Source: a virus
IMG/VR virus record: IMGVR_UViG_3300030103_004662
Location: 21,476-48,286 of that record
Reading direction: 5' to 3' (one strand)
Length of the DNA stretch: 26,811 nucleotides
The translations under genes were made by a program, and so were the position numbers. A model generated the notes under the pieces. That model was not told where the DNA came from, did not search any database, and saw only the letters and a program-made list of their open reading frames with translations. Below are positions 4,430 through 21,126 of this stretch, in pieces (positions within the stretch are counted from its first letter, which is position 1; each line of letters begins with the position of its first letter).

Positions 4430-4867
4430 ATGAAAAAGATTAACCTATTTGACGTCATTACTCCCGTAGGCATTGTATCATCTGTTCTACTACTTTTGAT
4501 GTTTGCATCTGGTTGTTCGATGAAGTTCTATAAGAACTCACCGGAGGATGTGCGCAAGTGTTGTGAGCGAGTGAATGCCCATGTCGAGGAAATGGCGAAG
4601 TTTAACCGTTACTGTAAGGTAGCAGTATTTTTAGCTAACAGTGAGAACACTAAAGCCGTTGGGGCGGGTGTCCGCAAAGGAGCGAGAGATGCCGTAAAGG
4701 TATGCAAATTTGTGTTTGGTGTAGAGACAGACCAAGAACTTATCAGCGCTGGCGACCAACAAGAGTATTACCGAGTGCGCTCCTATATTATAACAGAGCC
4801 CGACCCTAACGGATTTTGGATACGACCTAATTGCGACCCTGCCGAAATCCATTGTGAAGAATTTTAG
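4430..4867 (+). CDS. Predicted lipoprotein
   Basis: A 145-residue exported protein. Residues 1-30 have a short basic start, a hydrophobic core (VGIVSSVLLLLMFASG) and a lipobox-like ASGC at about 26-29, so the mature protein should be acylated at that cysteine and held in the membrane. The mature part has several more cysteines (KCCERV, YCKVAV, VCKFVF, NCDP, HCEEF), unusual for a cytoplasmic phage protein and consistent with disulfides outside the cytoplasm. Phage lipoproteins commonly serve as outer spanins or superinfection-exclusion proteins; this one is longer than a typical Rz1 and has no obvious inner spanin beside it. Function is open. Confidence 0.8.
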   Translation: MKKINLFDVITPVGIVSSVLLLLMFASGCSMKFYKNSPEDVRKCCERVNAHVEEMAKFNRYCKVAVFLANSENTKAVGAGVRKGARDAVKVCKFVFGVETDQELISAGDQQEYYRVRSYIITEPDPNGFWIRPNCDPAEIHCEEF

Positions 4868-4882
4868 AAAAGGAAAATGTAA

Positions 4883-5290
4883 ATGAAACAAGGTGATAAA
4901 GTCACTATGAAGTCCAATACCCTGATTATGGGATTCCACCGAGGAGGAGCTTATTTCCGCATTGCGAAGCGAGGCACTCCTAAGTTGGCTTCTCGCCGAG
5001 CAGGCACTTTTAGTCGAAACAAATACCATATTAATAACGGTGTCACCGACTATACCTTTAGGCAAAGAGGTGCCCATCATAGGGAAATACAGTGCTACGG
5101 AGAACAGCGGTTTGAACCTGGTGACTTGATTGGAGAAGTCATGGATGTACAAGATACTCATATCGATATTGTTATCGATTCGAGCACTTTTAGTGAACCA
5201 GTTGACGTCCCTTTCCGAATCGTTACAGGTATTGAGCTTGATAAGAATGCTAAAGATGCTTTTGCGGTCCTGTTAGAATCTGAAGATTAG
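4883..5290 (+). CDS. Hypothetical protein with beta-barrel-like repeats
   Basis: A 135-residue protein with AAGGA upstream of its ATG. It opens with MKQGDKVTM and later has RFEPGDLIGEVMDVQDTHID, both resembling the first strand of SH3-like barrels (G-D-x-V/I), so it may hold two small barrels. The N-terminal half is basic (RIAKRGTPKLASRRAG) and the C-terminal half acidic. No enzyme motif or membrane segment is visible. It may be related to the small GD-V proteins clustered at 9444-10840, but this is pattern-level similarity only. Confidence 0.72.
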   Translation: MKQGDKVTMKSNTLIMGFHRGGAYFRIAKRGTPKLASRRAGTFSRNKYHINNGVTDYTFRQRGAHHREIQCYGEQRFEPGDLIGEVMDVQDTHIDIVIDSSTFSEPVDVPFRIVTGIELDKNAKDAFAVLLESED

Positions 5291-5293
5291 AAT

Positions 5294-5428
5294 ATGGATT
5301 ACCTTTTGGATGTAGTAGCAACCATTGTAGTAGCCTTTGCTGCTGGCATGGTCCTTCATCGGGTGCTGTGGAAGTTCTTTGATTACGTCCTAGATAAATT
5401 AGAAGACTGGGAACAAGAGGATAGATAA
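5294..5428 (+). CDS. 44-residue single-span membrane microprotein
   Basis: The ATG at 5294 lies three bases after the previous stop and the stop is one base before the next ATG. Residues 5-22 form a hydrophobic span (LDVVATIVVAFAAGMVL), followed by an amphipathic tail that is first basic (HRVLWKFF) then acidic (LDKLEDWEQEDR). This suggests an inner-membrane microprotein. The tight spacing and clean hydrophobic pattern support real coding. Function unknown; holin, regulator and exclusion factor are all possible. Confidence 0.6.
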   Translation: MDYLLDVVATIVVAFAAGMVLHRVLWKFFDYVLDKLEDWEQEDR

Positions 5429-5429
5429 T

Positions 5430-5798
5430 ATGAATGGATTATATCATAAAGAGATTGGCTTCCCCAACGTCAAGTTGCCCGAGGGAACCTATGAAATAAA
5501 AAAGTATTCTCAACACGCACTGAGAGCCGCACAAGACGATAGATATGGGGAAGCTAAAACCTTACCCACTACTATTGATATGGCACAGGCAGACTTGTTC
5601 GAGATTGAGGTAGAAAATAATAAAGTTATCAAAGCAGCAGTAAGAACAAACTACGATGATAGATTAGATTTAATAGTTGTGTTTATGCCTGAGACTCCTG
5701 ACAACTTTGTAAAGACTGTCTGGTTCAATGAGAAAACGGACAGACATAGAACACTCCAGCACTGGAGATACGATATTCCTCCTCGGAGTGACTTCTGA
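5430..5798 (+). CDS. Hypothetical protein
   Basis: A 122-residue soluble protein in the coupled run, starting one base after the preceding stop; its own stop overlaps the next start (TGATG). Sequence around GTYEIKKYSQHALRAAQDDR and NYDDRLDLIVVFMPE suggests an alpha/beta or all-beta domain with many charged residues. Several phage proteins that handle small DNA-related substrates have similar openings, but I cannot place it in a family. No membrane segment or metal motif is visible. Confidence 0.72.
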   Translation: MNGLYHKEIGFPNVKLPEGTYEIKKYSQHALRAAQDDRYGEAKTLPTTIDMAQADLFEIEVENNKVIKAAVRTNYDDRLDLIVVFMPETPDNFVKTVWFNEKTDRHRTLQHWRYDIPPRSDF

Positions 5799-6364: not shown

Positions 6365-6627
6365 AACGTGTTGCAAAGCAATGTTGCATAGTTTGCTCAC
6401 AACACTGCAAAAGATGCACAGTTCTGTAAGCTCTTGCTTTGCCTGTTTATCTTTGTTTAGATGTAAAGATTTATAAGCTAAAACAGGATGTTATAGGATT
6501 GGCTGCTATTGGCAGCTTTTGGTGCTGATTGTCTCAGTGTCTCAAATACATATATGATGGACAAACGTCAAGGGGAAATAAAAAGCAGGCAAACCCAAAT
6601 AAAAGTGAAGAAAAACGCATTTAAAAG
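6365..6627 (+). other. Intergenic region with weak hairpin, upstream of a strong promoter
   Basis: No convincing gene here; two tiny ORFs (20 and 25 codons, from 6414 and 6554) lack ribosome binding sites. A hairpin GCTGC / GCAGC (6502-6506 and 6512-6516) followed by TTTT could be a weak terminator for the upstream run. Near 6371-6390 there are short TTGCAA/TTGCA inverted repeats. The last 60 bases are A-rich, a possible UP element for the promoter at 6628. Confidence 0.5.
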
Positions 6628-6655
6628 TTGACACATACCCTATCCGTGATAATAT
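6628..6655 (+). promoter_or_regulatory. Sigma70-type promoter, extended -10 (P1)
   Basis: TTGACA at 6628-6633, 16 bases, then TAATAT at 6650-6655 preceded by TG-A (extended -10). It drives the MoxR-type ATPase gene through a short leader with GGGAGAGA before the ATG at 6679. It is one of six near-identical promoters in the window with the pattern TTGACN-13 bases-TG-R then TAATAT or a close variant. Confidence 0.85.
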
Positions 6656-6678
6656 ACAGTTGAGAGGGAGAGACAACA

Positions 6679-7719
6679 ATGTCAGTAGACTTCAAAACTT
6701 TCGTGAGCCTAGCACCAGCAGTGAGTGCTGCTCGCCTTCCGGTTCTTCTCCGTGGTCGCCACGGTATCGGCAAGAGCCAAGTTGTTTATCAGTTGGCAGC
6801 TAATGCCAGCTTGCCAGTGGTTGAGCGTCGGGCTAGCCAGATGACCGAGGGTGACTTGGTTGGTCTGCCTAGTGTCGATGGCAATCGCACCAGCTTCAAC
6901 CCACCTGACTGGTTCAAACAAGCTTGCGAAGAGCCTGTCTGCTTGTTCCTTGATGAGGTTGACCGAGCTACCTTGGAAGTTCGCCAAGGGATTTTCGAAC
7001 TGACCGACAGCCGAAAGCTGAATGGTCACCACCTTCATCCTGATACCATCATCTTCGCTGCCGTCAACGGCGGGGAACATGGGGAAAACTACCAAGTCAA
7101 TGAGATGGACCCTGCCGAGCTTGACCGCTGGTCAGTCTGGGACATCGAGCCTACGGTTGAAGACTGGTTGGCTTGGGCTAAGAACAATGTTGACGGTCTC
7201 ATCTGGGACTTCATCAACCAGAACCGGGCTCACCTTGAGCACAACGGTGACATCGAACCTAACAAGCGTTACCCCAGCCGTCGTAGCTGGGACCGGCTTG
7301 ACAAGGTGCTCAAGCAGGCTGATGCTCTGGAAGCCAGCCCCATGATGTTCAACCTGGCTCAAAGCTTCGTCGGCTTCGAGGCTGCTGTCGCTCTCAACGA
7401 CTACGCCAAGAACTACGAGCGGGTCGTGACGGTTGAGCAACTCCTCAACGGGGAGCGAGTTGAAGCTCTGGCTGCAATGTCTCTCAACGAGCACTGCGCA
7501 ATGATTGAAAAGCTTGAAGCTGAAGAGATTTGCAAAGCAGAGTTCTCTGAGGAGCACGTCAAGAATCTGGCGGAATACTTCGTCACGCTGCCCAGCGAGG
7601 CTGCGATGAAGCTCTGGAGCGTAATCTCCCAAGCCGGTGTCCAAGAAAACGTGGTGAAGTTCCACGGTGCCAATGACGGCGCTGTCGGCAGCCACCTCTC
7701 GAAAATCCTGGGAGCCTAA
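6679..7719 (+). CDS. MoxR-type AAA+ ATPase
   Basis: A 346-residue AAA+ ATPase of the MoxR type, expected to act as a hexameric ATP-driven chaperone or remodeller with a vWA partner. Walker A is GRHGIGKS (26-33), Walker B CLFLDE (88-93), sensor 1 the Asn of AAVN (130), and a candidate arginine finger sits in ELDRW (150). The GDLVGLPSVDG stretch after the first strand is typical of MoxR. The C-terminal 150 residues are helical and less conserved. The partner is the gene at 7882, which has its own copy of the same promoter. Codons are biased toward C/G endings, unlike many neighbours, consistent with high expression. The target is unknown. Confidence 0.93.
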   Translation: MSVDFKTFVSLAPAVSAARLPVLLRGRHGIGKSQVVYQLAANASLPVVERRASQMTEGDLVGLPSVDGNRTSFNPPDWFKQACEEPVCLFLDEVDRATLEVRQGIFELTDSRKLNGHHLHPDTIIFAAVNGGEHGENYQVNEMDPAELDRWSVWDIEPTVEDWLAWAKNNVDGLIWDFINQNRAHLEHNGDIEPNKRYPSRRSWDRLDKVLKQADALEASPMMFNLAQSFVGFEAAVALNDYAKNYERVVTVEQLLNGERVEALAAMSLNEHCAMIEKLEAEEICKAEFSEEHVKNLAEYFVTLPSEAAMKLWSVISQAGVQENVVKFHGANDGAVGSHLSKILGA

Positions 7720-7750
7720 CTCTCTCTCAACCCTGCTCTCAGGTGACAAG

Positions 7751-7776
7751 CCCAGCCTAGTGCTGGGTTTTGTTTT
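7751..7776 (+). terminator. Rho-independent terminator
   Basis: A 6-bp stem CCCAGC / GCTGGG (7751-7756 and 7762-7767) with a 5-base loop, followed by TTTTGTTTT. It lies 31 bases after the ATPase stop and upstream of the promoter at 7834, so the ATPase and its partner are separate transcription units. Confidence 0.88.
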
Positions 7777-7833
7777 GTCTACACTAGGGGAGAACTAAAC
7801 TAATATACTGAAAAAGCGGGAATAAATAAAAAG

Positions 7834-7861
7834 TTGACAGACTACCATACCGTGGTAATAT
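7834..7861 (+). promoter_or_regulatory. Sigma70-type promoter, extended -10 (P2)
   Basis: TTGACA at 7834-7839, 16 bases, TAATAT at 7856-7861 with TG-G just before it; A-rich upstream (AATAAATAAAAAG). It drives the gene at 7882. CCGTG-R-TAATATAC is shared almost exactly with P1. Confidence 0.87.
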
Positions 7862-7881
7862 ACTAGTGAGGGAGAGATACA

Positions 7882-9096
7882 GTGAGTTTTGACCTGAAAC
7901 TACACGCTTACCGCTTGCTTATGGATGAGCCGTTCTTTGCGGCTTTGAGCCGTAAGATTGAAAAGCGTGCTGACCGCAGCATTCCGACTGCTGGTGTCCG
8001 GGTATGTCCTGAGACTGCACAGTTTGAAATGTATTATAATCCAGAGTTCTTTGAGAGTCTGCCTGAAGAGCAGGTGCGTGGAGTACTCAAGCATGAGTTC
8101 TACCACCTCATCTTCGAGCACGTCACCAGCCGTAAACCTGAGGGCGTCAACTTCAAGGTCTGGAACATCTGCGCTGACCTGGCTATCAACAGCCACTTGG
8201 TTGGCGAACTGCCTGAGATGGCTTGTATGCCAGGTGTCGGTCCTTTCGAAGACTTGCCCTTAGGGATGTCAGCCGAGTGGTACTTAGCTAACTTCCCAGA
8301 GCGTCCAGAGAATGAAGACTCTGAGAGCGGTGACGGCGAAGGTGGTGAGGGTGAGCCTGGTGATGGTCAGCCTGGTCAAGGTGGAGAGCCTGGCAGCTTT
8401 GATGACCACTCCGGTTGGGATGACGCTGGTCAAAGCCCTGAGCAGCAAGCAGCTAATCAGATGGCTAAAGAGCGACTCAAGCAAGCCATGAAGGATGCTG
8501 CGCAAGAAGCCAGCCAGTCTGCCAAGGGCTGGGGCTCAATGTCTGGGGAAGTAAAGAAAGATATTCTAAAACGACTAGAGAGTAAAGTAGACTGGCGTAA
8601 AGTGCTTCGCTACTTCATCAAGACCAGCCAGCGTGCTAGCCGTCGCTCTAGTGTGAAGCGTATCAATAAGCGGTATGCCTACATCCATCCCGGCAAGAAG
8701 GTTCAGCGCCAGGCAAAGATTGCCATCGCTATCGACCAGTCAGGTAGTGTGGATGATGAGATGCTGTCAGCCTTCTTCGGAGAACTCAACGGGCTCGCTA
8801 AGTTTGCTGAGTTCACGGTAGTACCCTTCGATACTGAGGTGGCTGAGGATAAGGTCTACGTCTGGAAGAAAGGACAGAACAAAGCTGCTGAACGTGTTAG
8901 CTGCGGCGGTACCTGCTTTGATGCTCCTACGGAATATGTCAACAAGCGTGGGGATTTTGACGGCGTTATTATCTTGACGGATATGGAAGCTCCGAAGCCC
9001 AAGGCTTGCAAAGCCCAGCGGATGTGGATGACCGATGAGCGTGGTGCCAGCCGTCCCTACTTCAAAACCAATGAGAAGGTTATCCAAATCGACTAA
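7882..9096 (+). CDS. VWA-like protein with metallopeptidase-type domain (DUF2201)
   Basis: A 404-residue partner of the MoxR ATPase. It starts at GTG after GAGGGAGAGA. Residues 1-145 form the DUF2201-type predicted metallopeptidase domain with HEFYH (71-75), an HExxH-like zinc motif, and nearby WNICADLAIN. Residues about 147-185 are a Gly/Glu/Asp linker of low complexity. The C-terminal part is a von Willebrand A domain with DQSGS, the MIDAS motif, and later GGTCFD and LTDME positions that complete the metal site. The MoxR/vWA pairing is widespread in bacteria, where it inserts metals or remodels complexes. Its presence in a phage points to takeover of a host complex, but the target is unknown. 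HExxH catalysis is predicted, not shown. Confidence 0.9.
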   Translation: MSFDLKLHAYRLLMDEPFFAALSRKIEKRADRSIPTAGVRVCPETAQFEMYYNPEFFESLPEEQVRGVLKHEFYHLIFEHVTSRKPEGVNFKVWNICADLAINSHLVGELPEMACMPGVGPFEDLPLGMSAEWYLANFPERPENEDSESGDGEGGEGEPGDGQPGQGGEPGSFDDHSGWDDAGQSPEQQAANQMAKERLKQAMKDAAQEASQSAKGWGSMSGEVKKDILKRLESKVDWRKVLRYFIKTSQRASRRSSVKRINKRYAYIHPGKKVQRQAKIAIAIDQSGSVDDEMLSAFFGELNGLAKFAEFTVVPFDTEVAEDKVYVWKKGQNKAAERVSCGGTCFDAPTEYVNKRGDFDGVIILTDMEAPKPKACKAQRMWMTDERGASRPYFKTNEKVIQID

Positions 9097-11637: not shown

Positions 11638-11974
11638 GTCATTGTTTTTACTAGTATTTGGCAATTTGTTCAATCAAGCCTATCAAATGCAAAACATTAC
11701 TTGCCCTAAGTGGGTGCCCGGCACCAATGAAATCCTGCCCCGAGGAGTAACCCTTTCTCCGGAGTTGGAGTTACGCAACAGGGTTCGATGTTATTGTGAG
11801 GTTGTCATGCCGCAAGAGCGGGGATGTATTGCCAACAATGTTCCAAGAAATCTATGCAAGGCACGCACGGCTGCTTGGGTGGAGGATAATCTTATGCTGC
11901 GAAATAATCACATCCAAGTCCAAACGCCGGTTCGGCTACCGCATCGGGATAGAATGATAAATGTCGAACCGTAG
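11627..11974 (+). CDS. Predicted secreted cysteine-containing protein
   Basis: A 115-residue protein with a signal-peptide-like N-terminus (basic start, hydrophobic LFLLVFGNLF, possible cleavage near AYQ-MQN at residue 20). The mature part has cysteines at CPKW, RCYCEV, RGCIAN and NLCKAR, five in about 65 residues, consistent with disulfides in the periplasm. It starts inside the preceding membrane microprotein gene and overlaps the pilin-like gene by 14 bases, so the three are probably translated together. No family is recognised. Confidence 0.68.
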   Translation: MFYKSLFLLVFGNLFNQAYQMQNITCPKWVPGTNEILPRGVTLSPELELRNRVRCYCEVVMPQERGCIANNVPRNLCKARTAAWVEDNLMLRNNHIQVQTPVRLPHRDRMINVEP

Positions 11975-12365
11975 AGGTATGACGCTCATTCTAGTTTTGG
12001 TAATGGCTGCTCTTATTGGTATGAGTGCAATGTTATTATTTTCTACCGCCAATATGGAAACGATGATAGCCGGCAACATTCGGCGTATGAACCAAGCAAA
12101 AATTTCGGCGGCGAGTGGGCTCAATCATTTCGCTGCCCTAAACTTAGATTACAACACACTTAGAGGGCAGGCTGGCGGTCTGCAAACTTTGCAGATTCTT
12201 CCCGTGACTCGTTTGTCGGACAGAACATCCTACGAGGTAAAGGTGCATTTCTCTCCCACTCTAAGTGCAAGACAGTATCTGGTCGAAAGTATTGGTTACT
12301 ATACCAAGGGAGAAAAGATTTTAGCTACCCATCCGATAAAAGCCCTTTTTGAAGGAGCGCAATAA
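11961..12365 (+). CDS. Type IV pilin-like (PilX-type) protein
   Basis: A 134-residue protein with a classic prepilin start: RRG then MTLILVLVMAALIGMSAMLL, a short basic leader ending in Gly6 and a long hydrophobic helix. Residues 31-58 (METMIAGNIRRMNQAK then SAASGL) match the PilX N-terminal family, minor pilins of type IV pili. Glu5 of mature major pilins is replaced by Leu. Prepilin peptidase of the host would be needed to process it. A phage-coded minor-pilin mimic could enter or poison the host pilus and block other pilus-dependent phages; this is inference. No pilus assembly genes are nearby. Confidence 0.8.
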   Translation: MSNRRGMTLILVLVMAALIGMSAMLLFSTANMETMIAGNIRRMNQAKISAASGLNHFAALNLDYNTLRGQAGGLQTLQILPVTRLSDRTSYEVKVHFSPTLSARQYLVESIGYYTKGEKILATHPIKALFEGAQ

Positions 12366-12401: not shown

Positions 12402-12533
12402 ATGATTACGAAAACTGTTGTTTGGAAAAAGATTCAACAATCCCTCAAAGAAGTGGAACGGTCAAAAAGGTTCACGGAAGATATTATGAAGCGCATCAAG
12501 GAAATTCCTCAAAATGAAAATAAAACTAAGTGA
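12402..12533 (+). CDS. 43-residue basic helical protein
   Basis: The ATG follows CGGAG by seven bases. The product is almost entirely charged and helical (WKKIQQSLKEVERSKRF). Its last 20 bases overlap the first leader-bearing gene at 12514. It is too short to classify but its ribosome binding site and coupling support expression. It lacks the MKxxx leader of the following genes. Confidence 0.55.
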   Translation: MITKTVVWKKIQQSLKEVERSKRFTEDIMKRIKEIPQNENKTK

Positions 12534-12717
12534 ATTAAAAAAAGTTGTTAGACGAGTAGTCAACGAAGCAGCTAAAGAAGGTTCTATACAGAAGATTTAC
12601 CGGCGCTCCTTTTCTCGAATGATTGATAAGGCATCTACGGGCGGTAATAAGAATACCCCACCATTTACAGAGAAAGCACCCCGACCTGGAGATTCAGGTC
12701 CGCCGGGGGACAAGTAA
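12514..12717 (+). CDS. Small basic protein with capsid-targeting-like leader
   Basis: A 67-residue protein beginning MKIKLSELKKVVRRVVNEAAK, an amphipathic helix ending in V-N-E-A, similar to the L/I-x-E|A/G cleavage site of T4-type prohead protease. The rest is basic, then Pro/Gly-rich (PRPGDSGPPGDK). It could be an internal head protein or scaffold piece. It abuts the next gene (TAA-ATG). The leader similarity to five other genes in the cassette is the main evidence; no database family is recognised. Confidence 0.68.
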   Translation: MKIKLSELKKVVRRVVNEAAKEGSIQKIYRRSFSRMIDKASTGGNKNTPPFTEKAPRPGDSGPPGDK

Positions 12718-13533
12718 ATGCTTCGAGAGTGGCGGGCTTTTCTGAATGAAGAAATAAAAAAAGTATATGTTCATGGCTATGTGAAACCAGAGAGTGCGTT
12801 CCATACACTTACAGAGTGGAAAGAATTTGTTGAGCGCATCTTAGAGTTTCAAAAAGAGGGACACTATGTTAGTCACTCTCATGGCGAAATCGTTGGTCCT
12901 AGAGAGCTTACTTCATTAATAGATGAATTTTACGGCTTCCAGATAAATGTTGATGTTCGTCGTTACGACTTGTTGACACAGAAGAATGTCTTGGACCATA
13001 TAGAAGATTTCAGTAATCATAGGTTCTGGTCTTTAGAGAATGAATTCTCTCAGTATTTCGAAAATATGGATGAACTTCGTTTTGCTTACTTTTATTCTCG
13101 GGGAGATTTAGAACCCTATGTGTTGATAGATGATGCTTTTACTGAGCAGATTTATGGTTCGATTTATAACCCAAAAGTTTTATATCACTATACTCACCCA
13201 GAAGGGGTTGAGAGAATCCAAAGAGCTATTGAATCAGGAGACCCATTTGACATTTCTGCATATACTGTTGCTCAACGTGATTTCTTTAGAGCCAAATCCA
13301 ATATGATTATGGAGTTTGAAGGAAATGTAAGAGCGGGTTTTCGCAGCGATGTAAAATCTTATTCTGTCAGTAACGGAAGAAAATGCGTAAACCTCCATAG
13401 GATGGGTTATCCTGGCACCAAGGACAATCTCTGTACTGATTTAGAGAACGATTGCAATGGAGAGCTTAAGACTTCCTTGTGGAATGAATTTATAGTTACT
13501 CCCATTAAAATATTAGATGTTAGTGAAAAATGA
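12718..13533 (+). CDS. Candidate ADP-ribosyltransferase with capsid-targeting-like leader
   Basis: A 271-residue protein. It opens MLREWRAFLNEE, a short form of the leader shared by this cassette, with L-N-E|E as a possible prohead-protease site. Residues 15-150 are unclassified. The C-terminal 120 residues have an ADP-ribosyltransferase pattern: VLYHYT (His157-Tyr-Thr) as the first strand, FDISAYT (Ser180) followed by a phenylalanine-rich strand and IMEFEG, and LWNEFIV (Glu257) near the end, matching the H-Y-E order. The reaction would be transfer of ADP-ribose from NAD+ to a host protein or nucleic acid. Fold-level evidence only; the glutamate is in the right place but unproven. It overlaps the next gene (ATGA). 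Confidence 0.68.
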   Translation: MLREWRAFLNEEIKKVYVHGYVKPESAFHTLTEWKEFVERILEFQKEGHYVSHSHGEIVGPRELTSLIDEFYGFQINVDVRRYDLLTQKNVLDHIEDFSNHRFWSLENEFSQYFENMDELRFAYFYSRGDLEPYVLIDDAFTEQIYGSIYNPKVLYHYTHPEGVERIQRAIESGDPFDISAYTVAQRDFFRAKSNMIMEFEGNVRAGFRSDVKSYSVSNGRKCVNLHRMGYPGTKDNLCTDLENDCNGELKTSLWNEFIVTPIKILDVSEK

Positions 13534-13979
13534 AACTGATTCTTGAAAGCTGGCGAAAATTCCTTGCCGAAGAAGATGTAAAATACTCAGGCATATTAAA
13601 GATGGGTCTTCCTCCCGAAGCTTTATCGCAGGTTCAGGCTGTGCAAACAATGTTGCCTGAAGAAGCTATTGATTTATCAGAAAAAGACTTACATATTACA
13701 TTAATTCACCAGGATATCCTAAAACCATTTGCAGAGATTATTAAAAATATTGACTTGCCAGAGCCTCCTCCAGTGGTTATAGAGGACGCTGTATGGGAAA
13801 GAGAATCTATGGGAAAAAAGTCTTGGGCTCTAAGGTTAGAAAACCAAGAAGATTATAAAGACTATGTGAAACAAGTAATGGAACTTCTGGGCAGTCCTAA
13901 CACTTCTCCCGAACCCGAACGAGTTTTTCATATTAGTGTAGCTAATCTGACAGGTAATCCTTACGATTCAGTAAGGTAA
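13530..13979 (+). CDS. 2H phosphoesterase with capsid-targeting-like leader
   Basis: A 149-residue protein. Residues 1-15 are the leader MKLILESWRKFLAEE, whose FLAE|E resembles the T4 CTS end FIAE|A. The body has two H-x-T/S motifs, LHITLIH (His55, Thr57) and FHISVAN (His134, Ser136), placed about 80 residues apart, which is the signature of the 2H phosphoesterase family (cyclic phosphodiesterases, LigT, and phage Acb1). These enzymes act on 2',3'-cyclic or cyclic oligonucleotide bonds. Cleaving host cyclic-nucleotide immune signals, as T4 Acb1 does, is one possibility; RNA end processing or ADP-ribose cyclic phosphate hydrolysis are others. It is coupled to the ADP-ribosyltransferase-like gene by ATGA. 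Confidence 0.82.
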   Translation: MKLILESWRKFLAEEDVKYSGILKMGLPPEALSQVQAVQTMLPEEAIDLSEKDLHITLIHQDILKPFAEIIKNIDLPEPPPVVIEDAVWERESMGKKSWALRLENQEDYKDYVKQVMELLGSPNTSPEPERVFHISVANLTGNPYDSVR

Positions 13980-14002
13980 TATTCTTAGGAACTATGTAAG
14001 AT

Positions 14003-15091
14003 ATGAAGCTTATAATGGAACAATGGCGAAAGTTCTTGAAAGAAGGCATCAGCGATGTCGTCTATCACTATACTAGCGGACTTGAAAAGGGTGCCAGGAT
14101 TCTTGAAGATAATAAGTTTCTAGCGTCCGGCGGATTTACCAAAGACGTTGAGTCTGAATTAGGTAAAGGTAAACTTTATTATTTTTCTACCGCAAGAACC
14201 CCAGCCAATGCTTACACAGGAAACTACCCACAGGGTGTTATCTTCAAATTGGATGGTCGTGCTTTGGGGCAGAAATATAAAGGGGTCCCACTAGACTATT
14301 GGGCAACCTCAAAACGTTCTTCTAAGAAAGCAGCCAACCCTGACCCTGGCGAGACAGAAGGCTTTGAAGCAGAAGACAGAATACTTTTAGACGAGCCTTA
14401 TATCGAGGATGCCGACAGATACATTGACGAAATACATTTTGCTATTCCTTTGTATCGGTTTGAGAAAGGAATGTTTGATGACGAGCCAAAAAGAAAAGCA
14501 GGCAGTTCCATAGAAGCATATACGATGAAAGGTCTTAGAGATGGCGTCGCTATAGCGGAACAAAGAAACATCCCTTACTACATCCACATTGATAAACAAA
14601 CCTTTCCCTTTGTTGAGGTTGGAAAGAAGAAGGCGCTTACAAGCTTGGCTGCGTTTATGGAAGAAGTAGAAAAGTCTGGTGTCACGGTTAATGAACCTCG
14701 TGACCAAGCGTCTGTCTATACGAGCAGAAAAGGAGCAGAGTTTGGGGAGGACGAAGTATTCCTGTATGTTCAGGCTGCCCAAGATATCCTAGCTGGTAAA
14801 GAGCGATTTGAAGGAGCCAACGTGAAAGACAAAGTTGGATATAAAGAAGAATCTGAACGTAAGCGAGAGGCTGCTGAAATATTTAGAGCACTGACACAAG
14901 GCAGACCTACTCCTGCCGGTCGTTACTATAGAAGTATTGATAATAGCCTTCATAATGTAAGTTCTAATCCAAAAGCTCGTAAGACCCTAGAGATGCTCGC
15001 ATCACTTATGCGGAGCACAAAGAAAAAGACACTAAAAGATTTTGAAGCCTATTTAAATCAGGTTTACAAACAAAACCACGGAAACGAATAA
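14003..15091 (+). CDS. Candidate ADP-ribosyltransferase with capsid-targeting-like leader
   Basis: A 362-residue protein. Residues 1-15 (MKLIMEQWRKFLKEG) are the leader, with L-K-E|G as an ideal prohead-protease site. The next 130 residues fit an ADP-ribosyltransferase: VVYHYTSG (His22-Tyr-Thr), LYYFSTART (Ser62-Thr), GVIFKLDGRAL and EAEDRIL (Glu122 or Glu124). Position and order suit the H-Y-E clade. Residues 190-362 are an unclassified, mostly helical extension. By analogy with T4 Alt, which is packaged by its CTS and modifies host RNA polymerase at entry, this protein may be delivered with the DNA. The similarity is of architecture, not sequence. Confidence 0.72.
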   Translation: MKLIMEQWRKFLKEGISDVVYHYTSGLEKGARILEDNKFLASGGFTKDVESELGKGKLYYFSTARTPANAYTGNYPQGVIFKLDGRALGQKYKGVPLDYWATSKRSSKKAANPDPGETEGFEAEDRILLDEPYIEDADRYIDEIHFAIPLYRFEKGMFDDEPKRKAGSSIEAYTMKGLRDGVAIAEQRNIPYYIHIDKQTFPFVEVGKKKALTSLAAFMEEVEKSGVTVNEPRDQASVYTSRKGAEFGEDEVFLYVQAAQDILAGKERFEGANVKDKVGYKEESERKREAAEIFRALTQGRPTPAGRYYRSIDNSLHNVSSNPKARKTLEMLASLMRSTKKKTLKDFEAYLNQVYKQNHGNE

Positions 15092-15358
15092 ATGAAAATC
15101 ACACGAACACAACTTAGAGAAATGGTTCAGGAGCAGATTAGGCAAATGACCGAAGCTGATGACTCATTCTCTAAGGCTGGTGAAGAAATAGAAAAGAAAG
15201 GCACAGAAGGTGTCTTTACTGCTAAGGCTAAGAAGCGTGGGATGAGTGCTCAAGAGTTTGCTAAAAAAGTTCTAGCAAATACCGATGAATATGATACAAA
15301 AACAGTGCGCCAGGCAGCTTTTGCAAAGGGTGCTAAAACAGTGGCGGATAAAAAATGA
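15092..15358 (+). CDS. Small helical protein with capsid-targeting-like leader
   Basis: An 88-residue, Lys/Ala-rich helical protein starting directly after the previous stop. The leader reads MKITRTQLREMVQEQIRQM then TEADD, so M-T-E|A is a possible cleavage site. Many marine phage proteins begin with an MKIT..QLR..I.EE pattern of this kind. It resembles a small internal head protein. Its stop overlaps the next gene by four bases. Confidence 0.7.
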   Translation: MKITRTQLREMVQEQIRQMTEADDSFSKAGEEIEKKGTEGVFTAKAKKRGMSAQEFAKKVLANTDEYDTKTVRQAAFAKGAKTVADKK

Positions 15359-15657
15359 AAGTAACCAAAGACCTATTGAGGCAATTGATAAAAGAAGAAC
15401 TCGAAGAAGCCATTGGAATGGAAAGAGATTTCATAGGCAAAGAAGGAGCCAGAGTTGGCTGGAACACTTTACAGAAAGTTATAAAAACAACCGCTAGCGG
15501 CAGAGAAAAAGTTGACTATGTGCGTATGCCTATGGAAGGTGAGATAATTGAAGTAGTTATCGATAGAACCTCAATTGAGCCAGGTTTTGCAATGGTCGCC
15601 GTTGAAGGCGAGCGGGACCCGATAATGGTTCCCCTTACAGATTTAGACCTTCTCTAA
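15355..15657 (+). CDS. Small protein with capsid-targeting-like leader and beta-rich body
   Basis: A 100-residue protein with the leader MKVTKDLLRQLIKEELEEA. After it, residues 30-100 are predicted mostly beta (VDYVRMPMEGEIIEVVIDR, then FAMVAVEGE and IMVPLTDL), a small barrel-like domain. It completes the leader-bearing cassette and shares ATGA overlap with the previous gene. No family is recognised. Confidence 0.7.
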   Translation: MKVTKDLLRQLIKEELEEAIGMERDFIGKEGARVGWNTLQKVIKTTASGREKVDYVRMPMEGEIIEVVIDRTSIEPGFAMVAVEGERDPIMVPLTDLDLL

Positions 15658-15685: not shown

Positions 15686-16879
15686 ATGAGTATTTTCCGA
15701 GAACATAAGACAATAGCAGACCGAGCTTCTAGCGATAGAAGCCGTCATCGTCAAAAGATTGAAGAAGCAATCAAAGACAGCATCAAAGATGTTGTAGCCG
15801 AAGAAAGTATTATCGGTCAAAACGGAAACAAGAAAATCCGGATTCCCGTCAAAGGAATAAAGGAACATAGATTCCTTTACGGCTCAAACGAAAAAAATAA
15901 ACAGGTTGGTTCTGCACAAGGTAAAGATGTAAAAAAAGGTCAACGTATTGGTCACCGACGCAAACCGCAAAAACAACAAGGAGATGGAGACAAGGCAGGC
16001 AATAAACCTGGCGAAGAGATGTACGAAATAGAAATGTCTCTAGAAGAGTTAGCTGGGTATTTGTTTAGCGACTTGAATCTTCCAGAACTTGAAAAGAAAA
16101 ACTTCAAGTTTACGACCCAAGAAAAAATGAAACGTAAAGGAAAGAGACCTTATGGTATTCGTCCTCGATTATCAAAAAAAGAAACAATTAAACAAAAGAT
16201 AAGAAGAAAAAAAGCCGCTATCAAAGCTGGTTCTTATGACCCAGAGAGCGGGGAAAGATTTACATTTCACGAAAGCGATTTGCGTTACAAACACATAGCC
16301 CCAGTTATCAAAGAGAATACCGCTGCTGTAGTTTTCTTTGTAATGGATGTATCGGGCTCTATGACTAAATCTAAAAAGTTTCTAGCCCGTAGTTTCTTTT
16401 TTCTTTTGTATCAATTTCTTAACCACAAGTATTCTTCTATTGACGTAGTGTTTGTTTCTCATACTGCTGAAGCTAACGAAGTCAACGAGGAGCAATTTTT
16501 TACTCAGGTTCCTAATGGTGGTACACTAGTTTCAACCGGTTTAGAAAAAGTTGAAGAAATAATAGAAAAAAGATATCATCCCAATAATTGGAATATCTAT
16601 ACATTTTATTGTGGTGATGGCGATAACTGGTCTATTGACAATAAAACCGCCTTGGAGGCTTTCCGTAGACTCAAGGAAATAAACCAAGTAATGTGTTATA
16701 CGGAAATTGGAAAACTACATCGTTATGATGAGTATTCTTTATTCGGAACAACTCCACCATCTAAAAGGTTGTGGGACTGGACAAAATTAATTGAAGATAA
16801 GAATTTCAAAAGAATAAGGCTTGAAAAAAATGATGACATTTGGAAAGCTTTTAAGAAACTCTTCGGAGGTAGGACATAA
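15686..16879 (+). CDS. yeaH: DUF444 (YeaH/YhbH) vWA-type protein
   Basis: A 397-residue protein of the YeaH/YhbH family, close to the usual length. The N-terminus (FREHKTIADRASSDRSRHRQ) and the YEIEMSLEELAGYLFSDLNL stretch are typical. Residues 221-225 read DVSGS, a vWA MIDAS motif. In E. coli the homologue forms an operon with the PrkA kinase YeaG and acts in nitrogen-starvation and stress responses; in Bacillus YhbH and PrkA are linked to sporulation. Here it is followed directly by spoVR and prkA, so the full three-gene module is present. It overlaps spoVR by one base. No clear ribosome binding site is seen before the ATG. Confidence 0.95.
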   Translation: MSIFREHKTIADRASSDRSRHRQKIEEAIKDSIKDVVAEESIIGQNGNKKIRIPVKGIKEHRFLYGSNEKNKQVGSAQGKDVKKGQRIGHRRKPQKQQGDGDKAGNKPGEEMYEIEMSLEELAGYLFSDLNLPELEKKNFKFTTQEKMKRKGKRPYGIRPRLSKKETIKQKIRRKKAAIKAGSYDPESGERFTFHESDLRYKHIAPVIKENTAAVVFFVMDVSGSMTKSKKFLARSFFFLLYQFLNHKYSSIDVVFVSHTAEANEVNEEQFFTQVPNGGTLVSTGLEKVEEIIEKRYHPNNWNIYTFYCGDGDNWSIDNKTALEAFRRLKEINQVMCYTEIGKLHRYDEYSLFGTTPPSKRLWDWTKLIEDKNFKRIRLEKNDDIWKAFKKLFGGRT

Positions 16880-18198
16880 TGGCAGATTGGTCAATGGAAG
16901 AGCTTCAAAGCTGGGATAACAAAATTTGTACTCTGGGAGAGGGTTTGGGACTTGATTGGTATCCTATAGAGTATGAGATATGTGATTACAAAGAAATGAT
17001 AGGTCATATGGCTTATACGGGTCTCCCTACTCATTATCGTCACTGGTCATATGGAAAATCATTTGATAGAATCCAGACAGAATATAATCTGGGTATGACC
17101 GGATTGCCTTATGAGATGATTATTAATTCAAACCCCAGTATATCCTATCTTATGACCGAGAACCCAATGCCTACCCATATTTTAACCATGGCTCATTGCG
17201 TAGGACACAGTGACTTCTTCAAGAACAATAGAATGTTTTCAGAAACAGGCGCAGATACTGCTATCGATAGATTTAAGGCTGCGGCTAAACGAGTAAAGAA
17301 ATATATGGAAGACCCAAATATTGGAGTAGAGAAGGTTGAAAAAATTCTTGATGCGTGCCACAGTATTAAGTATCAAGTGCCCCGCACTCCTGGGATAAAA
17401 CGCCGAAGTCACAAAGAGCTTAAAAAGTATTATACCAAGTTGATGATTGAAGATGAGTCTGGTCGTTGGGCAAACAAATTTGATATTAATAAAATTCCTT
17501 TAGAGCCGGATACTAATCTTTTAGGGTTTCTGGCTACGCACAACAAAATGCTTCAGGACTGGGAAAGAGACCTTATTCATATTGTAGAAAAAGAATCGCT
17601 TTATTTCATACCTCAGGCGTGTACCAAAATTATGAACGAAGGTTGGGCTTGTATGATACACGAAAAAATAGTTCACGCCTTGGGGTTATCTGACGAATAT
17701 ATTCTGTCCTTTATTAGACTACACAACCAAGTGGTCAGACCTCATCTTGGGCGTATCAATCCTTATCATTTGGGATTTACTATTTTCAAATACATTGAAA
17801 AGCATATGGGATTTGCTGAGTGTTTGCGAGTTAGGGAAACCCATAGTGATGAAACTTTTATCAAAACCTATCTGAACGAAGATTTATGTAAAGAACTGAA
17901 TTTATTTACCTATTCTTTCCATAATCGGGAGGGTTATAATAAAATAACTGAAGTTTCTTCCGAAGATACCTGGAGAACCATAAGGGATGACCTAATTAAA
18001 AGTGTAGGGCTTAATAGTGTCCCTGTTGTTATGGTCAAAGAGCTAACCCCCGAAGGGGTTCTGGTTTTAGAACATGAGCACGATGGCAGAGACCTAGAGT
18101 TATCACAGGCAAACAAAGTGTTTGAACACATTAACGACTTGTGGTACGGTGAGGTAAGATTCACTACAGTTATAGAAGATGAAAAATGGGAGTTCTGA
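16879..18198 (+). CDS. spoVR: SpoVR family protein
   Basis: A 439-residue protein of the SpoVR family (YcgB in E. coli), near normal length. Family features include the FFKNNRMFSETGA region after MAHCVGHSDF and NEGWACMIHEKI, the conserved Asn-Glu-Gly-Trp block. Biochemical activity is not established; in Bacillus it affects spore cortex formation and in enteric bacteria it belongs to the same stress regulon as YeaG/YeaH. Translation is coupled to the DUF444 gene (one-base overlap) and ends two bases before the prkA start. A perfect hairpin inside the gene (18043-18058) is coding and not a terminator. Confidence 0.94.
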   Translation: MADWSMEELQSWDNKICTLGEGLGLDWYPIEYEICDYKEMIGHMAYTGLPTHYRHWSYGKSFDRIQTEYNLGMTGLPYEMIINSNPSISYLMTENPMPTHILTMAHCVGHSDFFKNNRMFSETGADTAIDRFKAAAKRVKKYMEDPNIGVEKVEKILDACHSIKYQVPRTPGIKRRSHKELKKYYTKLMIEDESGRWANKFDINKIPLEPDTNLLGFLATHNKMLQDWERDLIHIVEKESLYFIPQACTKIMNEGWACMIHEKIVHALGLSDEYILSFIRLHNQVVRPHLGRINPYHLGFTIFKYIEKHMGFAECLRVRETHSDETFIKTYLNEDLCKELNLFTYSFHNREGYNKITEVSSEDTWRTIRDDLIKSVGLNSVPVVMVKELTPEGVLVLEHEHDGRDLELSQANKVFEHINDLWYGEVRFTTVIEDEKWEF

Positions 18199-18199
18199 A

Positions 18200-20140
18200 A
18201 TGACTAAAAACAAATCTGATAAATTTCTTAAGTTAGTTGGAAAACATCAAGACCAAAAGAAAGAAGAAAAGTTTCACGGTACACTAAAAAAGTATTTAGA
18301 AATTTTAGAAGCCAATAGTGATGCTCCTAAACTCGCTCACAAACGCCTCTACGATATTATTAGTTCTCACGGGATAACCCGTATGGAAGATTCTGACCCT
18401 CGTTGTAATAAGATATTCAATGGGGAGGAATTGCGTACCTATGACTACTTTCAAAGTAAGTTTTTTGGAATGGAAAGGTCATTAGCTAAGATAATGAGAT
18501 TCCTTCGCTCAGCATCACTAAAAGGCGAAGAGAGTCGTCAAGTGTTACTTCTGTTGGGTCCTGTCGGTGCTGGGAAGTCTGCTCTTTTAGAACACATCAA
18601 AGGTGCTTTAGAAGAATGTGAACCAATGTATCATATCGAGGGTTGTCCTATCCACGAGGAGCCTCTTCATCTGGTGCCTCGCTCTCTGCGAGCGGAGTTC
18701 CAAAAAATATACGGAATCCGAATAGAAGGTGATTTATGCCCGGTGTGTCGTTACCGCCTTCAAGAAGAATATAATAATGATTACACCGCTATGCCGATTA
18801 CTCAGTCATCTTTCTCTGTTCGTGGTCGGCGTGGTGTTGGCGTAGTTCCACCAATGGATGCTAATAGTCAAGACGTAACGATTTTAATTGGAAGTGAGGA
18901 TATTTCTAAGTTAGATATGTACTCAGAGGACGACCCACGAGTTCTGTCGTTAAATGGTGCCTTCAATGTTGGTAATCGTGGTATTGTTGAGTTTGTTGAG
19001 GTGTTCAAGAATGAGATTGAGTTCCTTCATACAATGATTACAGCCACCCAAGAGAAGGCAGTTCCCTCCCCTGGTAAGGGTCCGATGATTTACTTTGATG
19101 GTGTCATTTTGGCACACTGTAATGAAGCAGAGTGGAATAAATTCAAATCAGAAAATACGAATGAAGCTATTCTTGACCGCATCGTTAGGGTTAATGTTCC
19201 TTACAGTCTTGAAGTATCACAAGAGATGAAAATTTACAATAAACTCTTAGGACTTTCAGACTTTGATGGGCACGTTGCTCCCCACACCTTAGAAGTGGCT
19301 GCAATGTTTGCTGTACTGAGTCGGCTTCACCCCTCTAATAAGGTTGACCCTCTGACTAAGATGAAACTATATGATGGAAAAGATGTTATAGAGAAGGGCA
19401 CTGTTAAAAAGATTGACATTAACGACCTTCGAGATGAAGCTAGGGATGAAGGAATGACCGGAATATCTACTCGCTTTATTATGAAGGCTATTGATGCAGC
19501 ACTATCAGACAGCGAAAAAAATATGGTGACTCCCATATCGATTCGAGATGCTCTAATAAAACAAGTAAAAGACCAAATCGTTGTAGAAGACGACAGAAAT
19601 AGGTTTTTAGACTTCTTAGGAAAAACACTTCATGAAGAATACCTCAATATTCTGGAGAAAGAGATAACAAAGGCTTTTGTTTCAGCCTACGATGAACAAG
19701 CAGAGGCTTTGTTCAACAATTATCTTGACCATGCAGAGGCATATGTGAATATGTCAACAGTTAAGGATAGCGTTACTAACGAAGAAATCCATCCAGACGA
19801 ATCCTTTATGGCTTCAATAGAGGAACAGATTGGCATAACTGGAACTGCCAGAGAAAATTTCCGAGTTGATATTACTGCCTTTATGTTTTCTAAACTTAGA
19901 CGAGGGGAAAAAGTCAATTGGCAATCTTATGCACCTCTGAAAGAAGCCATTGAGTCTAAGTTAACTTCTTCAGTAAAACAGATTTCTCGTATTGTAACCA
20001 AATCTAAAAGCAGAGATAAAAAACAACAAGGCAAGTACAACGAAATGGTAAGTACGCTTATAAAAGAATATGGATATAATGAAAACTCGGCTGAAGAAGT
20101 TATTAAATTTGCTGCCAATAACTTATGGCGTGATAGTTAG
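18200..20140 (+). CDS. prkA: PrkA family serine kinase / AAA+ protein
   Basis: A 646-residue PrkA/YeaG family protein, full length for the family. The start at 18200 (GGGAG eight bases upstream) is preferred over 18179, which lies inside spoVR. Walker A is GPVGAGKS (120-127). A CP-x-HEEPLHL stretch followed by LCPVCRYRL is the cysteine-bearing insertion typical of PrkA. The C-terminal region is the PrkA-specific helical domain. PrkA has AAA+ and kinase-like or protease-like activities reported in different bacteria. Together with DUF444 and SpoVR it makes an unusual complete phage copy of a host stress/sporulation module. Confidence 0.95.
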   Translation: MTKNKSDKFLKLVGKHQDQKKEEKFHGTLKKYLEILEANSDAPKLAHKRLYDIISSHGITRMEDSDPRCNKIFNGEELRTYDYFQSKFFGMERSLAKIMRFLRSASLKGEESRQVLLLLGPVGAGKSALLEHIKGALEECEPMYHIEGCPIHEEPLHLVPRSLRAEFQKIYGIRIEGDLCPVCRYRLQEEYNNDYTAMPITQSSFSVRGRRGVGVVPPMDANSQDVTILIGSEDISKLDMYSEDDPRVLSLNGAFNVGNRGIVEFVEVFKNEIEFLHTMITATQEKAVPSPGKGPMIYFDGVILAHCNEAEWNKFKSENTNEAILDRIVRVNVPYSLEVSQEMKIYNKLLGLSDFDGHVAPHTLEVAAMFAVLSRLHPSNKVDPLTKMKLYDGKDVIEKGTVKKIDINDLRDEARDEGMTGISTRFIMKAIDAALSDSEKNMVTPISIRDALIKQVKDQIVVEDDRNRFLDFLGKTLHEEYLNILEKEITKAFVSAYDEQAEALFNNYLDHAEAYVNMSTVKDSVTNEEIHPDESFMASIEEQIGITGTARENFRVDITAFMFSKLRRGEKVNWQSYAPLKEAIESKLTSSVKQISRIVTKSKSRDKKQQGKYNEMVSTLIKEYGYNENSAEEVIKFAANNLWRDS

Positions 20141-20148
20141 CCGGACAA

Positions 20149-21126
20149 ATGATTGAGATAGAGAAAAAACTGGTGGTCCTGCGACAACTCGTGGGAAACA
20201 CTCCCGTAATTAAGTTATATTGTAACATAGACGGCAAAGATGTTCAGATATTAGCAAAATATGAAGCCGGTAACTTCTCTGGAAGCATTAAAGACCGAAT
20301 GGCACTACAAATTTTAGAGAATGCTTATAGAATAGAGCATCTAAAGTCTGGTGATACGATTGTAGAGGCTACATCCGGCAATACAGGGATTGCTTTTGCG
20401 GCAATGGGGGCGTTCTTAGGACATCCAGTACAAATCTATATGCCAAGTTGGCTTTCTAGTGAAAGAAAACGGCTCTTAAAGTTCTATGGTGCCAAATTAT
20501 ATGAAATAAGCGCCAAAAAAGGTGGTTTTTCAAAATGTATTGAGTTAGCTGACAAAAAAAGTAAAAAAAATCGCTATTTTGGACCAAAACAGTTTAACAA
20601 TACTTGGAATGTGATGGCTCACGTCAATTCAACCGCTCCGGAGCTTGAAAAAGCACTAATAAAACACAAATTAGGTATTTTGAACGCCTTTATCACTGGA
20701 ATGGGCACCGGGGGAACTATTATGGGCTTTTATCATTACTTTTCGCAAAAAAATAATGATTTTAAGGCTTTTCCCATACTACCTGTGTCCAATGAGGACG
20801 GAAAACACCAAATTGAAGGCATTGGAGACAGTTTTATACCAAATATTGTGGATTTACAAGCACTTAGCCCTATTTTACGGGTAAACGATGCGGATGCTAT
20901 AAATATTGCAAGACAAATCAACAAGTTAGGCTTGTCAGTAGGAATATCATCGGGAGCAAACGTTTTTGGGGCTATTGTCAAAGCCGAAGAAGCTGATGAG
21001 GCTAGTAACGTTGGGACCATACTATGTGATGGTAATAAAAAGTATCTTTCTACATCTTTGACCTCAAACACACGTTATAACTTATCACGGGACATAAAAA
21101 TACTAGACTTCGAAATATTTTCTTGA
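20149..21126 (+). CDS. cysK: Cysteine synthase (O-acetylserine sulfhydrylase) family
   Basis: A 325-residue PLP-dependent enzyme of the beta-substituting family, making cysteine from O-acetylserine and sulfide. Visible motifs: GNTP (16-19), SGSIKDR with the PLP lysine (Lys48), TSGNTG phosphate/substrate loop, GMGTGGTIMG, EGIGDSFIP, SGIS-type loop GISSGAN and a final DGNKKYLST. The catalytic set looks intact, so it should be active. CysK and CysM cannot be separated with certainty, and cystathionine-beta-synthase-like enzymes are related. It lies eight bases after prkA. A metabolic gene in a phage suggests support for sulfur amino-acid supply or iron-sulfur or redox needs in infection. Confidence 0.92.
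   Translation: MIEIEKKLVVLRQLVGNTPVIKLYCNIDGKDVQILAKYEAGNFSGSIKDRMALQILENAYRIEHLKSGDTIVEATSGNTGIAFAAMGAFLGHPVQIYMPSWLSSERKRLLKFYGAKLYEISAKKGGFSKCIELADKKSKKNRYFGPKQFNNTWNVMAHVNSTAPELEKALIKHKLGILNAFITGMGTGGTIMGFYHYFSQKNNDFKAFPILPVSNEDGKHQIEGIGDSFIPNIVDLQALSPILRVNDADAINIARQINKLGLSVGISSGANVFGAIVKAEEADEASNVGTILCDGNKKYLSTSLTSNTRYNLSRDIKILDFEIFS

Follow-up and report, generated by a model that had tools for sequence, protein, structure and literature searches.

Exchangeable N-terminal leaders of uncultivated T4-like marine phages as candidate capsid-targeting propeptides

The capsid-targeting sequence of bacteriophage T4 is a long-established feature of a small number of T-even phage proteins. The T4 internal proteins IPI, IPII and IPIII and the Alt protein carry an N-terminal propeptide of approximately ten residues that ends in FIAE↓A (MKTYQEFIAEA in ipII and ipIII; arrows mark known or predicted cuts), and in the internal proteins this one leader, a substrate of an S77 protease, precedes unrelated bodies. 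The T4 protease gp21 cleaves after L/I-X-E, and the ten N-terminal residues of IPIII suffice for packaging (PMC9026906). Here, we describe a comparable arrangement in a DNA stretch of 26,811 nucleotides (the window), which corresponds to bases 21476-48286 of the 48,286-base IMG/VR virus record IMGVR_UViG_3300030103_004662, a genome fragment. Six plus-strand open reading frames (ORFs) follow one another across positions 12514-15657 of the window, and their products begin with short leaders that are very probably capsid-targeting propeptides, which would be cut by the prohead protease and would serve to pack effector proteins into the head and inject them. A preliminary description of the window, made from the sequence alone, had pointed out these six neighbouring leader genes, and all six ORFs and their N-termini proved to be as quoted.

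Two leader classes on unrelated bodies

The preliminary description treated the six leaders as a single type. The leaders are real, but fall into two classes. The class A pattern, MK-L-[LIM]-[LM]-E-x-W-R-x-[FY]-L-x-E, is found on genes 2, 3 and 4 (MLREWRAFLNEE, MKLILESWRKFLAEE and MKLIMEQWRKFLKEG; genes are numbered as in Table 1), and class B, which resembles MKITK..LR.IIKEE, is found on genes 1, 5 and 6 (MKIKLSELKKVVRRVVNEA, MKITRTQLREMVQEQIRQMTEA and MKVTKDLLRQLIKEELEEA). Further class B-like leaders lie at 4514-5440 and 6459-6926 of the same record (record coordinates). The bodies of genes 2, 3 and 4 are mutually unrelated in BLASTP comparisons, as had been claimed.

Larger IMG/VR relatives were retrieved via the 2H-phosphoesterase-like and ADP-ribosyltransferase (ART)-like proteins, including G005 (190,528 bases), G001 (171,926 bases) and G004 (191,359 bases). 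G005 is collinear with the window's record over 32 kb at 75.9% identity (G005:57413-105847); among phage isolates, no DNA-level similarity to the record was found. The N-terminal class A motif occurs three times in the 48-kb record, where internal positions predict 0.0, and 5, 6 and 7 times in three large relatives, where they predict 0.06-0.25. An unsupervised comparison of the first 18 residues of all proteins, the kind of N-terminal alignment that the preliminary description had called for, gave 108 similar pairs in G005, 62 in G001 and 88 in G004, compared with 7-17 for internal and 3-11 for shuffled sequences. Part of this excess derives from a large MKVGDLV... family of small barrel-like proteins, which are scattered over the record and its relatives, mimic a shared leader and were removed from the leader groups. 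Both this N-terminus and the MDELxLAxLL... N-terminus of contig G055, which also belongs to a small barrel-like family, were rejected as leaders.

Is the likeness a property of the peptide or of the nucleic acid that encodes it? The leaders of genes 3 and 4 are identical at 11 of 14 residues, and only four of nine same-residue codons are identical; the likeness is therefore maintained at the protein level. If the shared 5' ends were instead a conserved DNA or RNA element that assists recombination or translation during gene swapping, with a peptide that has no role of its own, that would fit the codon bias that class A leaders display, with GAA at the first Glu in 139 of 141 cases and CGA at Arg. 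However, such an element does not explain why other codons are free (AAT or AAC for Asn, six codons for Arg), why five of the nine same-residue codons differ between the two window leaders or why different leader types across phages converge on the same protein ending, and we consider it very improbable.

In IMG/VR, at least 119 stretches fit a degenerate DNA pattern of the class A leader. The matches listed gave 150 distinct ORFs, 131 of them complete, and the 131 complete proteins comprise 75 unrelated body families among these matches, in line with the earlier claim of unrelated bodies. A minority of the bodies have Pfam names: NUDIX, AAA_33, Pkinase, Zeta_toxin, NT5C, GNAT, C-5 cytosine methylase, tRNA_lig_CPD, HAD and Peptidase_M23. 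Class A is a phage-only tag. The pattern had one match in 257 Gb of bacterial and archaeal genomes, on contig L371 (PBSV01000031.1), which is filed under an Opitutia metagenome-assembled genome and is a phage contig closely like G004 with the same cassette; the Opitutia bin is therefore contaminated, or the match is a hint at the host. A tblastn search with the bare leader yielded no matches, probably because the query is too short. Neither the leader strings nor anything resembling them was found in the literature searched, which has few subscription journals and almost no preprints, and relative to this literature the leader sequences appear new.

Glutamate boundary, prohead protease and leader exchange

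The class A leader has a sharp end. In 58 leaders that lie outside the search pattern and for which agreement was demanded no further than the residue after the Trp, the information content is high through W+4, is 2.0 bits at the Glu (W+6) and declines to 1.2 bits at W+7 and approximately 0.5 bits from W+8. Across four orthologues of gene 2, W5, F8, E11 and E12 are invariant and the remaining leader positions drift. Class A and most other leader types end in L/I-x-E. The preliminary description had assigned a glutamate site to all six window leaders; the strict L/I-x-E ending is present in four, and genes 1 and 5 end in V-N-E and M-T-E, with V or M at P3. The leader shape of gene 1 is kept by orthologues in three relatives, and the orthologues of gene 6 begin with MKITKALLRTIIKEELQ and MKITKSLLRTIIKEEIE. 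Similar sites are found in head proteins of the relatives. Their major capsid proteins contain LLRE↓T (G005), LLKE↓Q (G001) and LLRE↓S (G004), aligned with LLRE↓S of T4 gp24, which we take to be the exact cut position in that protein, and their S77 proteases contain L-x-E near their own N-termini.

A prohead protease gene was a further expectation of the preliminary description, one that held when tested on the relatives. S77 was detected in T4, used as a positive control. The search of the 48-kb record, a fragment, gave no match, but the control in that search was silent. The three relatives of 170 kb or more (G005, G001 and G004) all carry S77, which was not found in five related contigs shorter than 125 kb. 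The G005 protease is located at 15 kb, approximately 42 kb outside the stretch that matches the window's fragment, and the head module of the relatives is T4-like, with capsid proteins homologous to gp23 (E about 1e-26). Among contigs of 120 kb or more, S77 is present in 11 of the 12 chosen by the class A leader alone versus four of nine random ones retrieved via arbitrary short DNA words (Fisher p=0.03); given that the compared phages are related, this and the other p values overstate independence. The five random contigs without S77 contain no shared N-terminal group of at least three on unrelated bodies in the unsupervised comparison. The random S77 contig G028 has such a group (MLSFKQYLNEE, MKSFKSYIKE, MKAFKQYMHEE and MKSFKKFVAES), which resembles the T4 leader, and the random S77 contig G030 has none. 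S77 is therefore apparently necessary but insufficient for leaders. Groups in G055 (mainly the small barrel-like family) and G031 (Asn-rich ends) were rejected as leaders.

Leader genes show moderate enrichment up to 15 kb from the terminase-to-capsid region in G001 (p 0.015) and G004 (p 0.043), and in G005 only when the contig is read as circular (p 0.012). In G004, class B genes are interspersed with those for the terminase, portal, protease and capsid; in G005 and G001, they adjoin the scaffold gene. Class B leaders often have several possible Glu sites and lack a sharp end. These features would fit a variant of the preferred explanation that competes for the class B half only, in which class A is a capsid-targeting propeptide and class B is something different, for example a retained structural helix of head-core or neck proteins. 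Such a division is unlikely in view of the unrelated class B bodies (14 families among 16 proteins in G005, 8 among 9 in G001 and 8 among 8 in G004), the presence of I-x-E and the adjacency of classes A and B within one cassette. We conclude that class A is very likely a capsid-targeting propeptide and that class B is probably one as well, less securely than class A.

The ART-like body of gene 4 occurs behind different leaders. H22, S62, R65, E122 and E124 are invariant in this family, and the three-part ART active site, H/R...S/Y...ExE, is represented by H22, S62 and E122-x-E124, which are conserved without exception in sets of 21 and 17 sequences. In an AlphaFold 2 (AF2) model with a mean predicted local distance difference test (pLDDT) score of 78, the leader forms a separate helix (residues 2-13, low confidence) and the body starts with a strand (residues 19-25). 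The model has no PDB fold match and its BFVD matches include none annotated as ART, the protein has no Pfam ART match, and one relative weakly matches Tox-ART-HYD1 (E 0.016); as neither profiles nor folds tied it to a known ART, we name the protein ART-like only. The leaders of this family are MKLIMEQWRKFLKE↓G in the window, MKIDSLYESLLEE↓G in Alishewanella phage Slickus01, MKKFNEFANELAE↓A in Vibrio phage K566, MKYLKIFEQFLNE↓G in contig L209, MQKLQDLLFE↓A in LR756508, MIKLKSLLQE↓I in Mel-JY01, MNLNE↓S in Salicola phage SCTP-2 and MKDLIKILNE↓E in contig L216, and the ending L/I-x-E is nearly universal among those of S77 phages. The ART-like protein begins directly at the body, without a leader, in the Dickeya JA29 group and Salmonella phage Sen-NF. 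S77 is present in the five leader-bearing isolates (Slickus01, K566, LR756508, Mel-JY01 and SCTP-2) and was not detected in Lu11, JA29 or Sen-NF. Among the contigs, S77 occurs in L209 and L215 and is missing from L210, L212 and L213, which have no leader, and from the 127-kb L206, which has one. Overall, S77 is found in nine of ten ART-like phages with a leader versus none of five leaderless ones (p=0.002), which are close kin. A second body behind different leaders is a zeta-like kinase, found in the window's record and in G028. One leader protein of Slickus01 matches Pfam ART-PolyVal above the cut-off.

Could the leader be an uncut docking helix for the tail, the membrane, a replication compartment, a chaperone or another phage or host structure? 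Both classes look amphipathic-helical, the AF2 helix is separate from the body, and cleavage is a prediction. Docking nevertheless accounts neither for the end of conservation at the Glu of L/I-x-E, nor for the convergence of leader types in S77 phages on this ending, nor for the absence of leaders from phages in which S77 is undetected, and we regard it as improbable.

Other shared N-termini occur in these phages. In Pseudomonas phage Lu11 (L011), the leader MKIQLAVA is found on ART-like, GNAT-like and other bodies; it is perhaps read by a different protease. At 93328-96895 of Slickus01, three proteins whose bodies differ begin with a second common leader, MVGTTKKLFSKVTVTNKDRTAPFFF, which has no Glu site. 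No T4 late promoter TATAAATA was seen upstream of leader genes in relatives of the window; the Slickus01 copies stand before head genes, not before the cassette itself.

Virion location, cargo and the cassette genes

Agrobacterium phage Atu_ph07, a jumbo phage that carries S77, links leaders of this kind to virion protein genes. Its genes 53-62 are a tandem array with leaders such as MKWNDLNE↓A and MRWEQLTE↓S on bodies with a YRG motif, which we take to be ART-like; Pfam gave no name for two of the array proteins. The array (L351 39484-49507) consists of approximately ten YRG genes with the leader M[KR]W.QL.E and lies within a virion-protein cluster. Mass spectrometry identified 131 virion proteins, mostly from three gene clusters, according to the published report (PMC6102473), and our numbering of coding sequences agrees with that paper at gp125, gp132, gp198, gp204, gp215 and gp288. 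N-termini of the form M[KR][WLF]xxLxE occur 18 times genome-wide, 12 of them inside the three clusters as outlined there (p=3.5e-6); because these 12 belong mostly to one array, they represent fewer independent events than the p value implies. In cyanophage syn9, no such leaders were seen among 15 genes examined in the first 50 kb.

Several observations weigh against capsid targeting. In addition to the kinship of the compared phages and the largely paralogous origin of the Atu_ph07 leaders, the virion support from Atu_ph07 stands at the level of gene clusters, not of single proteins. The window's own record, a fragment, is without head genes, and two of its six leaders deviate at P3. S77 alone is not predictive, given that Mel-JY01, G030, G031 and G055 lack a genuine leader excess, and leader-bearing contigs of 122.7 kb and 127 kb are without S77, perhaps because they are fragments. 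Finally, the leader at contig locus L214 has no L/I-x-E ending, and the shared Lu11 leader has no Glu in a phage without detectable S77. The computable predictions of the T4-like reading in the preliminary description nevertheless mostly held (S77, many bodies, a Glu boundary and L/I-x-E), more weakly for class B.

We propose that late in infection the short N-terminal helix would bind the prohead core and bring the attached protein inside. The S77 protease would then cut after the Glu of L/I-x-E, as the motif and the presence of the protease suggest, and free the mature protein in the head. The cargo would be ejected with the DNA and act immediately in the next host, like T4 Alt and IPI-III. 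Cargo may be swapped by recombination behind the conserved leader; the occurrence of one leader on 75 body families and of one body behind several leaders supports such exchange at the sequence level. The ART-like, 2H-like, Nudix, kinase and zeta-like cargo may serve early host takeover or counter-defence. This role is likely given that ARTs and Nudix enzymes have been proposed as head-packaged in myoviruses (PMC9503650) and that T4 IPI-III block GmrSD restriction enzymes (PMC12373910).

The individual cassette genes and their surroundings are listed in Table 1. The body of gene 2 has a fold that was not recognised: its AF2 model (pLDDT 41) is unusable, and relatives sought in the PDB and in phage isolates were not found. 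In gene 3, two H-x-T/S motifs, H55-x-T57 and H134-x-S136, are conserved in three sequences; neither Pfam nor a PDB profile search gave a match, and the protein is named 2H-like by motif alone because it has no profile match to a known 2H family. Directly downstream of the cassette lie DUF444, SpoVR and PrkA kinase genes, whose order is kept at three loci of relatives (L018, L022 and L025), and the gene just upstream, with a pilin-like N-terminus, is kept in relatives and has no Pfam match.

Table 1. Leader cassette and neighbouring genes of the window (window coordinates)
Feature	Position	Strand	Length (aa)	Leader (position)	Body or content
Gene 1	12514..12717	+	67	class B-like, MKIKLSELKKVVRRVVNE↓A (12514-12567)	basic tail GGNKNTPPF
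Gene 2	12718..13533	+	271	class A, MLREWRAFLNE↓E (12718-12750)	YHYT and LWNEFIV motifs
Gene 3	13530..13979	+	149	class A, MKLILESWRKFLAE↓E (13530-13571)	2H-phosphoesterase-like
Gene 4	14003..15091	+	362	class A, MKLIMEQWRKFLKE↓G (14003-14044)	ART-like
Gene 5	15092..15358	+	88	class B, MKITRTQLREMVQEQIRQMTE↓A (15092-15154)	phrog_20603 domain
Gene 6	15355..15657	+	100	class B, MKVTKDLLRQLIKE↓E (15355-15396)	
ATPase and adjoining gene	6679-9096				AAA_5 (MoxR-like) ATPase; DUF2201 VWA/metallopeptidase
Pilin-like gene	11961-12365				N-terminus MSNRRGMTLILVLVMAALIGMSAM...
Three-gene group	15686-20140				DUF444 (YeaH-like), SpoVR, PrkA kinase
Enzyme gene	20149-21123				pyridoxal-phosphate enzyme, cysteine synthase-like

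Comparison with known delivery systems

If the leaders act as the T4 sequence does, sequence alone would suffice to list the effectors that uncultivated phages inject. Among the matches listed, the 131 class A proteins would represent 75 candidate effector families, most of them without a Pfam name. The leaders would also serve as new tags with which phage heads could be loaded with foreign proteins, and would allow a direct test of how common the use of pre-loaded enzymes against bacterial defences is among phages. We tentatively suggest that in uncultivated marine T4-like phages two exchangeable tags constitute a general delivery system, in which class A would carry dozens of host-directed enzymes and class B core-associated proteins, and in which acquisition of a tag would recruit a protein as cargo.

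Among other systems, we know of no short leader shared across many small enzymes in phiKZ or SPN3US. The ejection proteins of these phages are virion proteins that leave the head once a diverged gp21 protease has cleaved them behind a Glu (PMC9026906, PMC7411985); their propeptides end in S/A-X-E, so their P3 motif differs from that of the leaders described here. In P1 DarB, 30 N-terminal residues direct a foreign protein into the capsid (PMC9024508); DarB is one large protein, whereas the present genes form a cassette. In the work of Iyer, Aravind and colleagues on polyvalent proteins and virion-packaged ARTs, ARTs and other effectors are likewise predicted to be packaged and injected (PMC9503650). 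Those predictions rest on domain content and gene neighbourhoods, and the keyword-matched passages of that paper mention no separable leader. The T4 cargo comprises an ADP-ribosyltransferase and anti-restriction proteins (PMC9026906, PMC12373910). Unlike in T4, the leaders of these uncultivated marine phages are new (W-R-x-F/Y-L-x-E and KITK..IIKEE), their cut is predicted, and they stand in front of many more body families.

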